64,000 nucleotides of DNA from assembly GCA_030066985.1 (NCBI GenBank), contig JASJAN010000022.1, forward strand, positions 1 to 64,000, given 5' to 3'. How positions within the stretch are numbered: position 1 is the stretch's first letter; each line of letters begins with the position of its first letter. Source of the stretch: Desulfobacterales bacterium. GTDB lineage: Bacteria; Desulfobacterota; Desulfobacteria; Desulfobacterales; JAHEIW01. This document shows, one piece after another, positions 1,105-60,493 of this stretch. Below the pieces are notes generated by a model. The model saw nothing but the letters and a program-made list of their open reading frames with translations. It was not told the origin of the DNA and ran no database searches. A program made the position numbers and the translations under genes.

Positions 1105-3019
<1,915 letters not shown>

Positions 3020-9318: not shown

Positions 9319-9549
9319 GCATCCATCCAGCATTCGCCGTTTTCGCACCGCGTTCTGATATCATGTGCTGAGCTGCCAACCATCCGGTTTCGCAATTCCC
9401 GATACGGCCTCAACGCATCACGTGTAAGGAGTCAGACATCTCACCGACTGATTACCTGAATCTTGCATAAAAATTAATCAGAAGTCGCTATTATCTTACC
9501 CATTCTGCACGAACACGCTGTTGGCGATTAAGCGAGAGGAGCTGCTGTT

Positions 9550-10461
9550 ATGAAAACAACATGGGTAGGCATCGGTTTGGTGTTCGCATTCGTTGCTCTG
9601 ACGGGATTTAAGCTGGATAATGCAATTGTGCCGCAAGAAGAGATATTAGCCGGTGGTCCACCCAAAGATGGCATCCCGGCTATTTTGAAGCCGCATTTTA
9701 TCCCGCCGGATAAAGCCACCTATCTTCAGCATACGGATCAGGTCATCGGTGTCAGGATTGATGGTCAAGCGCGGGCTTATCCCATCAACATCCTCAATTG
9801 GCATGAAGTCGTCAATGACACCATTAATGGCAAGCCCATTGCAGTGACCTTCTGACCGCTCACCCAAACGGGAGTCGTGTACTCCCGCACAGTTCAAGAC
9901 CGGGAATATACCTTTGGCGTATCCGGCCGATTGTACAAAAGCAACGTCCTGCTTTACGATCATCAGACCGAAAGTCTCTGGTCTCAGCTGATGCAAAAAG
10001 CCGTCTCCGGTACGCTGGCCGGCCAAAAACTGGAAAAGATACCGTCCACCCGGGTCAGCTGGCAAACCTGGCGCAAGCGAAATACAGATACGCTTGTGCT
10101 TTCAGACGATACGGGCTACGATCGCAATTATACCATTGATCCGTATAAAGGCTACTACCGCGTCGCCGGCGTGATGTTTCCGGTGGGAAATGTGCGCAAG
10201 GATTTGCCAGCTAAGGAACTCGTTCTCGGCATCCAAATCAATCAAGTGGCCAAGGCCTATCTCCTAAAGTGGTTGCGCAACAACCCTGGAACGTATAAAG
10301 ATCAACTGGCTGGTGAAACCATTGAAATCCACGTCCATTCGACTGGTGAAGTGGTGTCCGTTCTCAACCAACGCGGTGATCCGATTGTGGCAACCTATGC
10401 CTATTGGTTTGCCTGGCAGGCGTTTCATCCCCAAACCCAGGTATTTAAGGCACAACCTTAG
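9550..10461 (+). CDS. DUF3179 protein, predicted selenoprotein (in-frame UGA at 9853-9855)
   Basis: The frame runs 304 codons from the ATG at 9550 to TAG, interrupted only by TGA at codon 102. Both sides match DUF3179: IDGQARAYPINILNWHEVVND before, and YTFGVSGRLYKSNVLLYD, TESLWSQ and YWFAWQAFHPQT after. In the family the stopped position is the Cys of the TYCPLC or TYCPLT motif; here it reads TF-UGA-PLT. A hairpin CGGGAGT-CGTGT-ACTCCCG at 9869-9887 begins 13 bases after the UGA, with a G second in its loop, as bacterial SECIS elements have. The N-terminus is a signal peptide or anchor, so the protein is probably exported. GAGAGGAG precedes the start. Function of the family is unknown; a redox role is likely. 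Sequencing error or pseudogene is the alternative, but no second defect exists. Confidence 0.82.
9869..9887 (+). promoter_or_regulatory. SECIS-like hairpin for selenocysteine insertion
   Basis: A perfect seven-pair stem (CGGGAGT with ACTCCCG) closes a five-base loop CGTGT. The loop starts 20 bases after the UGA, within the 16-37 base range known for bacterial SECIS elements, and has a G in its first two positions. It lies inside the coding frame, as bacterial SECIS elements do. Confidence 0.72.
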
Positions 10462-10674: not shown

Positions 10675-11451
10675 ATGACACAACCACAGGTGTTGACCGC
10701 AACCAAAGGACCGCTGGGCATCTTGACATTAAACAATCCAAAAAAGATTAATGCGTTATCACGCCAGATGATTGGCGAAATTATGGCGGTGCTGCAGGCT
10801 TTTTCCGAGGATGAGTCCATTAAAGTGATCATCATTCGTGCAGCCGGTAAAAATTTCTGTGCCGGTCATTACCTTGAAGAAATGGTCGGTAAGGGAATCA
10901 AAGAGTATAAATCTATTTTTGACGAATGCAGCCGAATGATGCAAATGATTCATGAAGTACCCCAGCCGGTGATTGCCCAAGTCCATGGCATTGCCACTGC
11001 AGCCGGATGTCAGCTGGTAGCCTGGTGTGACCTGGCAGTTGTCTCTGAAGATGCGCAGTTTGCCACTCCAGGTGTTAAAATCGGGCTGTTTTGCACCACT
11101 CCGATGGTGGCCATTACCCGGGCAATTGGACGCAAGGCCGCAATGGAAATGCTGCTGACCGGACGTTTTTTTTCAGCCACTGAGGCCAAAGACCTGGGGT
11201 TGGTGAATCATGTGGTCACAAAAGAGAATTTAACGGCCGAAACAGAAGAACTGGCCAATCAAATCGCAGAAGCCAGTCGCTTTGTGCTGTCGATAGGCAA
11301 ACAGGGATTTTATGCGCAGGTCGACCAGGCTGACAACAATGCCCTGCATTATGCCAAACACACCATCACCATGAATTTAGAGGCGGTTGATGCCCAAAAC
11401 GGAATCAATGCCTTTTTGAACAAAGAAAAACCAACTTGGCAAAACTGTTAA
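10675..11451 (+). CDS. enoyl-CoA hydratase/isomerase family protein, ECHDC3-like
   Basis: This 258-residue crotonase-fold protein has the oxyanion region NFCAGHYLEEM and the helix IATAAGCQLVAWCDLAV. In true hydratases GGGxE and GQPE supply two catalytic glutamates; here the positions are Gln113 and Gly133, so the classical hydration reaction is unlikely. KIGLFCTTPMVAITRAIGRK and the downstream GRFFSATEAKDLGLVNHVV are typical of the ECHDC3 group. An AAAGGAG site precedes the ATG. It ends four bases into the convergent phosphatase gene. The acyl-CoA substrate is unknown. Confidence 0.82.
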   Translation: MTQPQVLTATKGPLGILTLNNPKKINALSRQMIGEIMAVLQAFSEDESIKVIIIRAAGKNFCAGHYLEEMVGKGIKEYKSIFDECSRMMQMIHEVPQPVIAQVHGIATAAGCQLVAWCDLAVVSEDAQFATPGVKIGLFCTTPMVAITRAIGRKAAMEMLLTGRFFSATEAKDLGLVNHVVTKENLTAETEELANQIAEASRFVLSIGKQGFYAQVDQADNNALHYAKHTITMNLEAVDAQNGINAFLNKEKPTWQNC

Positions 11452-12872
11452 ATGGGCTGACGATGGACAGCGATCATGGTGATGTCATCAAATTGAGGTG
11501 CATTATCGATGTGATCGAATAAATCGCTTTTGATTCGATCAATCAGTTCACTGGCTGATGGGGGGCAGGGTTCCAGAAGCGCCAGAAATCTTTCTTTGGA
11601 AAACATGGTCTTGCGGGGCGAGAGTGCCTCGGTCACGCCATCGGTATAACCGATCAGAATATCGCCGGGCTCAATTTTGGAATGCCGGATCTTATATTGT
11701 ATTCCTGGCATAATACCGATAGCGGGACCTGCCGGGCTCAAGGTTTCTTTGATACCAGACGGTCCAATAATGTATAGCGGCTCGTGACCGCCATTGATAT
11801 ATAACAGCTCCCCGGATGTTGGATTCAGTACGCCGAAGAACAGGGTGGCAAACATGTTCTCATGTCCATGCTCTGATGAGATGTAGTCATTGGTTAGGGA
11901 TACGGCTTGCAGCATCTGATTGAGATCAGCCTGACTGCCGTTAAGATCGGTTTTAATGCTTTGAGCTGAAGACCAGCCGCTCAGACGGATTTGCCCCGAA
12001 AATACCCGCATCAAACTTCGAAAAAGTGCCATGTACAGCGCCGACCCCACGCCTTTGTCACACACATCAGCAATTACCAATCCAAGAAAGTTTCCGGGAA
12101 GTAAAAAAGCATCGTAGAAATCACCCGAGACCTGCCTGGCCGGGTTAAAACAGGTGCCGATTTCCCAGCCCGGCACCTGCGGAATTTGATTTGGCAGAAA
12201 ATCACGCTGAATTTTTTTGCCTTTTTCAAGCTCGGCATCCAATGCATCTGAATAACTTTCGATAGCCGCCTTAGCCCGTTCGAGGGAATGATAGGATTTT
12301 TCCAATTTGGCGTATAGCCTGGCATTTTCAAGAGCGATGGCAATTTGCCCGGCCGTCATTTCCATCAACTCTGCGGTTTCCTGGTTGAAATGACCTTTTT
12401 GGGCATGCAGCAAGGTCAACAATCCCAGCAGTTTTTCGTCTCTGAGGATAGGGACTGCCAACGCAGATCGAACCGAATAAGGCTGATCGGGCAGATCCAG
12501 CCAGCGATCATCTGCTTGGGTATCCTCGATCAACCCCAACTGGCGATGCCGACGAACCCAACCGGCAAGACCTTTATCCAGTACGCGGCCGATGAGTTGA
12601 GAACGCTGTTCCGGTGTTGCATCCGCACGGGTTAGAATGCTTTCGATGACCATGCCATTGCGATTGAGCAAGAAAAGGCTCCCTTTTTCAGCGCCCGTCA
12701 AACCAACGAAGACTTCCAGTGTTTGCTGCAATATCGATATAAGTTTTTCTTCTTTACCGGAAGAGCGTGCCAAAGAGACAAAATTTTCCAAAAGCCGGCT
12801 TTGCGCTTGAAAGGCTGCTTTTTCACTTCTCAATTGAGACAGCTTTTTCTGGAGCGTTTTGAGTTCCTGCAA
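11448..12872 (-). CDS. GAF-domain serine phosphatase (PP2C/SpoIIE/RsbU type)
   Basis: The 474-residue protein has an N-terminal coiled coil (residues 1-35), a GAF sensor domain (about 45-190), a second coiled coil and a C-terminal PP2C-like phosphatase (about 235-472). In the phosphatase, VIADVCDKGVGSALYMA and GYTDGVTEA carry the metal-binding aspartates, and FDDITMIAV ends the domain. Such proteins dephosphorylate anti-sigma-factor antagonists in partner-switching stress control. No STAS or HPK-type kinase gene lies nearby, so the partner is elsewhere. There is no membrane segment, so the input is probably a cytoplasmic small molecule. Confidence 0.9.
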   Translation of the reverse strand: MQELKTLQKKLSQLRSEKAAFQAQSRLLENFVSLARSSGKEEKLISILQQTLEVFVGLTGAEKGSLFLLNRNGMVIESILTRADATPEQRSQLIGRVLDKGLAGWVRRHRQLGLIEDTQADDRWLDLPDQPYSVRSALAVPILRDEKLLGLLTLLHAQKGHFNQETAELMEMTAGQIAIALENARLYAKLEKSYHSLERAKAAIESYSDALDAELEKGKKIQRDFLPNQIPQVPGWEIGTCFNPARQVSGDFYDAFLLPGNFLGLVIADVCDKGVGSALYMALFRSLMRVFSGQIRLSGWSSAQSIKTDLNGSQADLNQMLQAVSLTNDYISSEHGHENMFATLFFGVLNPTSGELLYINGGHEPLYIIGPSGIKETLSPAGPAIGIMPGIQYKIRHSKIEPGDILIGYTDGVTEALSPRKTMFSKERFLALLEPCPPSASELIDRIKSDLFDHIDNAPQFDDITMIAVHRQPI

Positions 12873-13492
12873 TGTGATCGATCCCCCCTTTGAGGTGATA
12901 TGATGCCTGGGAAGCGGTAATTGTCATACGGGCCTGAGAAAAGCCGCAGCAGCGTTTGTTAAACGAATGCGAACGCTAAATCCAAAACGATGGCATAAAG
13001 CATACCTCAGTTGCGCCGGCAATACACTCCGTCTGCGATATATGCCTTTTGCCAAATTCTGCTAAGGCATCAGAATTTATATTTATATCGCTTATTTGAT
13101 TTATTCAACCCTATTTTTTGACCAGCAATATTGGACTTGCAAAAAATGATGAAAAAAGTTACAAGTTGGGCTAAATGCCAGATAGAAAAATTCTGATCCC
13201 ATCGCTGCCTGACCATCGAATGCGTGGACGTCTCGCAACGCCAGATTGAGCTTACTGACATTTTCATTCTAAGCCTCACCCCACGACGGATCGCAGATTT
13301 CAATCAGCCCCGAGCGTCATTTTTTCATTACATTATCCTATCGACAGTACTTTTTCACCTTTTTTGTTCCCAGACGGTTTCTGGCAATTATAGATCACCA
13401 TGTTCAACTCAACGGCAATAGATGTGGGCGTAAACCTGCCGGTTTCGTTAGATTGAGTTCGGCTGAATGGACCATTCATAAAGGAGGCTGCC
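12873..13492. other. 620-base gap without a gene
   Basis: This stretch separates two divergent genes and should hold both promoters. AATTCTG and CAGAATT form a short hairpin around 13058. Small open frames on both strands lack ribosome sites and sensible composition. I see nothing further. Confidence 0.4.
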
Positions 13493-59827: not shown

Positions 59828-59995
59828 TTAGAGCGACGGTTTCGGATCATCTAGCTGCTGTAAAAATTCTCTGAACCATGGCGGGTTTTGCAGAATGATG
59901 TACACCAGAAAGATAGCCGTAAGGGGAAGAAAAAAAACAACCAGATCCAATACCAGTATAAGTGCACAAATCAGAATGCGTTGCTTGGTGCTCAT
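59828..59995 (-). CDS. small (55-residue) membrane protein
   Basis: The reading frame from ATG (59995) to TAA (59828) translates as MSTKQRILICALILVLDLVVF and on through FLPLTAIFLVYIIL to QNPPWFREFLQQLDDPKPSL. AAGGA lies five bases before the ATG. One or two hydrophobic segments fill residues 7-39 and a charged tail follows. The pattern (STKQR, LDLVVFFLPLTA, PPWFREF) is protein-like, and I believe similar short proteins exist in related bacteria, but I cannot verify it. Confidence 0.7.
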   Translation of the reverse strand: MSTKQRILICALILVLDLVVFFLPLTAIFLVYIILQNPPWFREFLQQLDDPKPSL

Positions 59996-60136
59996 AACTT
60001 CCTTATCTCTGCTTTGTTTTCATTTGCATTCACGATCCGGGTCGGCGCGCCGAGATGAGACCCAGCGGCATCTTGGAAGTGCATTCGGCAGGCATTAAAT
60101 ATCGGGTGTGAATCAGCAGACCTAAAGAGGTTGATC

Positions 60137-60493
60137 TTAAAGAAGCCCTTTGTCTTTCAAGATGGACATCGATCTTTGACCGATGGTGGTGACCTGGGTC
60201 AGTGCCTGAGTAAGGTGGTAACCCGCTTCATGCGCGACACCGGAATTGATCATCACCAACGCTGTATCAATGCTTTTTTCAATTTCCGGCCAGAGTTCAT
60301 GGGGCGCTGCTTTTTTGCAGATCAGTATCTCGCTGCCCACCATGTCGACCACCGCTTTAATGATTTTTTCAGCCCCGGGTTTATCGGCTTCAGGTAGCGC
60401 TTTGTAAAGTTCCACGGCTTGCGTGATCCAAATCAGACCACCCTTGATTTTTTCACTCTGCGAAAAAGTGGTAATGGCATCTGGGGTTTTCAT
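60137..60493 (-). CDS. small helical cytoplasmic protein, unknown
   Basis: The 118-residue product is mainly helical (KIKGGLIWITQAVELYKALPEADKPGAEKIIKAVVDMVGSEILICKKA, then ELWPEIEKSIDTALVMI) with no signal or membrane segment. I cannot name a family. A ribosome site AGAAAGG precedes the ATG. It is followed by the 55-residue gene. Confidence 0.65.
   Translation of the reverse strand: MKTPDAITTFSQSEKIKGGLIWITQAVELYKALPEADKPGAEKIIKAVVDMVGSEILICKKAAPHELWPEIEKSIDTALVMINSGVAHEAGYHLTQALTQVTTIGQRSMSILKDKGLL

Follow-up and report, generated by a model that had tools for sequence, protein, structure and literature searches.

According to our analysis, the gene at positions 9550-10461 (+) of the window, that is, of the whole 64,000-nucleotide stretch of DNA analyzed here, very probably (roughly 95%) encodes a selenoprotein and is not a pseudogene or a read error. 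This had been proposed by a sequence-only reading of the same DNA and is now supported by the reading frame, the family assignment, the conservation of a UGA, a constrained hairpin and a full selenocysteine (Sec) machinery, which together are our reasons for interpreting the gene in this way. When the TGA is read through, the frame yields a single DUF3179 protein of 303 residues, running from ATG 9550 to the stop TAG 10459-10461, in which TGA 9853-9855 is the sole in-frame TGA and other defects are absent. The Pfam scan assigned the read-through protein to PF11376 with 293.2 bits (E 2.9e-87, cut-off 27), the only Pfam family found in it at E 0.001, and this match together with the sequence bears out the earlier claim that the DUF3179 frame is continuous across the TGA. 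NCBIfam gave only an irrelevant match at E 0.17, and a PDB sequence search with the window protein returned no solved relative (one match at E 0.4 was ignored).

The coding sequence is preceded by a likely ribosome-binding site (AGGAG, 9537-9541 (+), 8 bases 5' of the ATG) and starts with a hydrophobic N-terminal helix (residues 6-18, 9565-9603 (+)), which was modelled as a helix with low pLDDT and is likely, judging from the sequence and the model, a signal peptide or membrane anchor. The NWHEVVND motif (residues 83-90, 9796-9819 (+)), invariant in the 32-row long-form alignment, is followed by an xPL motif (UPLT) with the predicted Sec102 (9853-9855 (+)) at the position of the first Cys of CPLC in relatives; besides this position there is no Cys over the whole chain. 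Under the normal code the downstream part is listed as a separate ORF of 194 aa from GTG 9877, just as had been foreseen for a standard gene caller, and reading through the TGA removes a likely mis-annotation in which one gene is otherwise taken for two. Searching the window for single-UGA read-through ORFs of 150 aa or longer yielded eight, of which four, including 9550-10461, passed the overlap filter. The others that passed were located at 59888-60397 (+), 1105-2784 (-) and 11448-13055 (-); in the last two the UGA falls just before a normal ORF start, and they look like chance extensions upstream of genes.

The TGA is shared with a large part of the family. DUF3179 loci were gathered from the same genome (2), from the same family (3), from the best 80 of 170 stretches ranked by similarity to the window protein and confirmed in genome contigs, and from a phylum sample of 395 genomes, 45 of which had a DUF3179 match (46 loci). 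From these 131 loci we left out those with no residue at the alignment column from which the codon was called (L033, L090, L114, L146, L147 and L148; by motif, L033 and L114 have TGA and L090 has TGC) and those that were duplicates over 75 bases (L109, L111 and L113). Among the 122 distinct loci, drawn in part from the best 80 of the 170 stretches, the codon at the site was TGA in 39, TGC or TGT in 82 and GAT in one, so that the TGA does stand at the family Cys codon, as had been claimed. Three residues past the site, the 39 TGA rows have T (14), V (9), A (7), S (5) or C (4), and the 82 Cys rows have C (68) or T (14). TGA is also the codon in each of the 13 nearest relatives (L026-L038; best-segment identity 58-69%). 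On a tree of 121 rows, built by a quick method, with long branches meeting and 48 of 118 inner branches open, and used only to count changes, the Sec and Cys forms were parted by one single change. Additionally, one long form, L119, has a second in-frame TGA 71 codons past the Sec codon, to be explained as a second Sec, by mutation or by an assembly error, and an in-frame TAG occurs in L033/L114; some DUF3179 copies (L119; L033/L114) may be broken or misassembled. When the 47 ORFs flanking 13 UGA loci were scanned against Pfam, no family was found in more than two.

The sequence downstream of the TGA also agrees with what had been described. It consists of 13 bases (9856-9868) and a perfect 7-pair hairpin (9869-9887 (+)) formed by the stem CGGGAGT (9869-9875), the loop CGTGT (9876-9880) and the stem ACTCCCG (9881-9887); the loop, with G as its second base, begins 20 bases past the UGA, and the folding energy is -11.1 kcal/mol. 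The published bacterial SECIS (bSECIS) model, as given in a review passage, has a loop of 3-9 nt, a stem of 4-16 bp, a G in the first two loop bases, a spacing of 16-37 and an MFE of at most -7.5, and the window hairpin lies within each of these limits (a 5-nt loop with G second, a 7-bp stem, a spacing of 20 and -11.1 kcal/mol), which confirms the SECIS-like spacing noted earlier. Taken alone, this hairpin is unremarkable, since 41 of 200 dinucleotide shuffles fold equally well, and it becomes significant only because it is constrained in relatives. In the 30 long Sec genes (210 cells), 86.2% of the cells of the 7-pair stem were standard pairs, compared with 32.4-54.8% when the partner was slid by 1-3 columns. 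The percentage paired, the doubly changed cells and the covariation score of this stem were each above all 500 shuffles; the pairs with a double change (reached by 279 of 500 shuffles) and the further pair types (419 of 500) were not above shuffles, and for most of the stem the signal is conservation, not covariation.

As a stricter control, we kept the protein and resampled synonymous codons (500 shuffles) in gene sets that were drawn in part from the best 80 of the 170 stretches and that included 31 genes of a short form (see below) picked from TGA rows. Paired cells reached 86% against 65% in the shuffles for the 30 long Sec genes and 95% against 58% for the 31 short Sec genes, with 0 of 500 shuffles as high in either set, whereas the 82 Cys genes showed no excess (42% against 41%, 170 of 500 as high). 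When simple hairpins only were scored, a hairpin within the bSECIS limits was found in 24 of 30 long Sec, 26 of 31 short Sec and 8 of 82 Cys genes, against a synonymous-codon expectation of 3.2, 2.7 and 8.9, respectively; under this scoring one is missing in 6 of the 30 long and in 5 of the 31 short Sec genes. The folding z-scores were -1.31 for the long Sec, -1.64 for the short Sec and -0.16 for the Cys genes, and the long and short Sec genes differed from the Cys genes with Mann-Whitney values of 1.3e-6 and 4.6e-10, which come from related and so not independent sequences.

The sequence-only reading had named a genome devoid of Sec machinery as the result that would overturn its proposal; we looked for this and it did not hold, as selA, selB, selC and selD are all present in the same genome. 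The tRNA-Sec (anticodon tca) scored 75.2 bits, SelB 376 bits, SelA 614 bits and SelD 356 bits. The selD gene has one in-frame TGA (L153, G000:C48:37903-38817), and its product is, from its sequence, probably itself a selenoprotein; SelD is described as a widespread selenoprotein in a review passage. Only matches over the cut-off were counted, and control genomes also passed it in 5 of 14 cases for tRNA-Sec, 2 of 14 for SelB, 1 of 14 for SelA and 2 of 14 for SelD. Among the 38 genomes behind the loci (that of L061 not included), SelB exceeded the cut-off in 13 of the 14 that have UGA-DUF3179 compared with 7 of the 24 that have Cys-DUF3179 (Fisher p 1.7e-4, kinship not corrected for), and it was not found over the cut-off in G400, a genome of the Sec group.

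The same genome carries a second DUF3179 gene at G000:C3:156839-157480 (L218; L002 1504-2145 (-)), which encodes 214 residues with the motif AAYUPLVNLAA and matches only positions 7-147 of PF11376; NCBIfam had no match to this short protein. Both genes belong to PF11376, have the TGA at the same column and carry a SECIS hairpin, but the short paralogue differs from the window gene in consisting of the first repeat copy only, in having UPLV where the window gene has UPLT and in a hairpin placed 2 bases farther from the UGA. A profile built from nine aligned genes of this kind was run on 389 genomes of the same order and on 398 Pseudomonadota genomes. In the order it gave 47 match rows, and all 39 rows that span the site hold one TGA, the other 8 being fragments that stop short of it. 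Twenty-seven of the 39 scored at least 173 bits, as short forms do, and 12 lay at or below about 100 bits, as is the case for long forms. Thirty loci were returned for these matches, and the 29 that were readable (L242 was not) comprised 26 short and 3 long forms, with TGA in 29 of 29. None of the 46 matches in the 398 Pseudomonadota genomes had an inner stop, and the best of them (88 bits) was about equal to the window long form (85.7 bits), so that no short form was seen there; the absence of inner stops rests on the profile search, as the motif expression, which accepts only C or U at the site, read 5 of 30 Pseudomonadota loci. The genomes searched showed no Cys version of the short form. 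The distance from the inner TGA to the end of the gene is exactly 86 codons in all 26 short copies, and their last codon is TAA (11), TGA (9) or TAG (6). The cells of their hairpin were 98% paired (n=9) and 94% paired (n=23, UPLV), and its DNA is unusually fixed, with GTGTAC in 26 of 26 copies and GCGGCTGTGTACAG whole in 18 of 26.

The long form is an internal duplication, as comparing its two halves shows. Repeat copy 1 (residues 58-200, 9721-10149 (+)) bears the His-Glu motif and the Sec site, and the degenerate copy 2 (residues 215-303, 10192-10458 (+)) is without Cys or Sec and without the NWHE motif; in profile-profile comparison the halves matched with a probability of 98.5 and E 3.7e-15 (E 4.3e-14 for the Cys forms alone), values made somewhat optimistic by the choice of the halves by eye, since the sequences looked alike. 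A self-comparison of the whole long-form profile found no off-diagonal repeat. As NWHEVVND and the Sec/Cys position are present only in the first copy of the long form, and the short form equals this first copy, the short form may resemble an older unit. We would suggest, with appreciable reserve, that the short, single-domain forms with UPLV or UPLA make up a Sec-only subfamily of DUF3179 that has not been described before. This subfamily would be a candidate for the ancestral unit from which duplication, with loss of the second site, produced the long form; in the Sec lineage one Sec would have replaced the whole CxxC pair, and the fold is possibly Rieske-like. If this were true, DUF3179 would be a natural test of one-Sec against two-Cys chemistry. 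The short form also offers a minimal protein for structure and assay work.

With regard to the fold, the structure models (pLDDT 90.8 and 93.5) both had Rieske-fold domains as their best solved matches, with Z up to 7.1 over about 90-100 residues, which is middling by the tool's scale. Foldseek gave no match at E 0.001 or better, and when three DUF3179 alignments were compared as profiles with 21 Rieske sequences (30 loci fetched, 9 without the strict motif left out), no similarity appeared. To the eye, the Rieske motif C-x-H-x(15-17)-C-x-x-H resembles N83-x-H85-x16-C/U102-x-x-C/T105. The idea that the DUF3179 site corresponds to the Rieske ligands was dropped, because the profiles are unlinked and the cluster loops would fall at about residues 116-140 and not at His85/Sec102. 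This placement of the loops combines the Rieske ligand numbers with near-gapless match ranges (e.g. model 72-171 on chain 1-94). The CxH...CxxH ligands of a Rieske [2Fe-2S] cluster are not found in the window protein, which has no Cys.

The Cys content of the family bears on the possible chemistry. Counting from about 70 residues before the site, in a set drawn in part from the best 80 of the 170 stretches, 35 of 39 Sec proteins had no Cys and 74 of 82 Cys proteins had exactly two; L049, L089, L120 and L126 were one-Cys proteins. The motif was of the UxxC type in 4 of 39 Sec rows (L115, L138, L144 and L145) and of the CxxC type in 68 of 82 Cys rows. Ten Cys proteins with CPIT, CPTT or CPVT (L121-L125, L130, L131, L133, L134 and L149), on a long branch of 5.15, have their other Cys exactly 130 residues on, and in these the partner thiol has apparently been relocated along the chain. 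All 32 aligned long-form rows keep His85-Glu86 unchanged, and in the wider set a His-Glu pair lies no more than 25 residues ahead of the site in 27 of the 30 long Sec rows, all 9 short Sec rows and 72 of the 82 Cys rows. When tested with the phylogeny taken into account, the association of Sec with loss of a second Cys came down to one independent pair, so that significance was unreachable, and the Fisher value for this association does not count as independent evidence; since the tree has one Sec/Cys change, the association amounts to one evolutionary contrast. The second Cys may have been lost in one historical event, and the four UxxC-type rows, which stand apart from the main Sec clades (two of them on long branches, with weak placements), would fit a succession CxxC -> UxxC -> Uxx(T/A/S/V).

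Since the window protein has no Cys, an internal selenenylsulfide is impossible and an internal partner thiol is not needed, and Sec102 must then be reset by an outside reductant or act as a ligand or nucleophile. In the mechanism that we propose, SelB and Sec-tRNA would read UGA 9853-9855 with the hairpin 9869-9887 as a guide and would insert Sec as residue 102, a position held in most relatives by the first CPLC Cys. The protein would probably be exported, as its sequence and structure model suggest, and Sec102, which is in the same domain copy as His85-Glu86, would attack or be oxidised by a small substrate and would then be reset by an external thiol or a protein partner. We tentatively favour such an exported one-Sec oxidoreductase, at a probability a little short of even, over a metal-binding or nucleophilic role. 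For the function of DUF3179 this adds a mechanistic constraint, as the lone Sec is the only chalcogen nucleophile in most Sec forms, and the existence of natural two-Cys, one-Cys and one-Sec versions makes the benefit of selenium testable by one or two residue changes.

A real but smaller chance goes to a role of the Sec or Cys as a metal ligand, together with His85, or as the nucleophile of a hydrolase or transferase, in a fold that may be Rieske-like. In favour of such a role are the dispensable CxxC partner (absent in 35 of 39 Sec forms and Thr in 14 of 82 Cys forms), the invariant His85 and Glu86 and the Rieske-fold domains matched by both models; a Z of 7 is, however, usual for the best matches of models without a clear relative, the Foldseek search and the Rieske profile comparison were both empty, the match ranges suggest ligand loops away from His85/Sec102, and the CxxC pair retained by the majority of Cys forms is a typical sign of redox function. 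It is improbable that the protein is a thioredoxin-type dithiol or selenolthiol oxidoreductase with an internal CxxC or UxxC bond, in spite of the CxxC-type and UxxC-type rows and of the ten CxxT rows in which a Cys 130 residues on looks like a displaced partner, because 35 of 39 Sec forms, including the window protein, are without Cys in the counted region and four Cys forms have one; for the window protein, the lack of Cys refutes a thioredoxin-type bond unless the partner thiol is on another protein.

Readings that dispense with selenium fare worse. That the UGA specifies a standard amino acid, or is passed by leaky read-through, we regard as very improbable: the frame alone cannot tell Sec from another residue, but UGA serves as an ordinary stop at the end of 9 of 26 short genes while the inner codon is TGA in 26 of 26, and the hairpin has the form of a bacterial SECIS in a genome with selA, selB, selC and selD. 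A pseudogene or sequencing error, in which the TGA would be a nonsense mutation or a misread base, deserves next to no weight, for although a standard caller splits the gene and the assembly is a draft of 81 contigs, 39 of the 122 distinct loci have TGA at this very codon, which excludes a read error in practice, the hairpin is constrained in TGA genes only and other frame defects are absent.

Read as a selenoprotein gene, the window gene can be compared with the Cys-containing members of its family and with DUF3179 selenoproteins already on record. The Cys proteins, which come from many phyla (most of L039-L105; L053, within this range, has TGA), are 42-49% identical to the window protein (20 Cys rows aligned) and share with it the NWHEVVND motif and, in the structure models, the order of strands and helices; they differ in having TGC or TGT at the column, mostly CPLC, mostly exactly two Cys and no constrained hairpin. 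DUF3179 (PF11376), with the motif UxxC/T, is tabulated as a selenoprotein family in PMC9312934 (2022) and PMC13188914 (2026), whose relevant passages credit Zhang and Gladyshev 2007 (doi 10.1093/nar/gkm514) and an Olavius algarvensis symbiont. The reviews' table has the one motif entry UxxC/T, whereas our loci also include UxxV, UxxA and UxxS motifs, a single-domain short form and an internal duplication, and none of these was found in the review passages or in the full-text literature listings for DUF3179. The short Sec form, the internal duplication and the Cys-free constraint were likewise not found in the literature searched, and the 2007 paper could contain them. Two relatives of the window gene, L028 and L036 (63% and 59% identical in the best segment), are from Olavius-associated bacteria, the type of source that the review passages name for the first report. 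The known DUF3179 selenoprotein and the window gene belong to the same Pfam family and have the UGA at the same motif (UPLT in the window), with no difference between them; the window gene is a member of an already known selenoprotein family, and the use of Sec in DUF3179 is not new.
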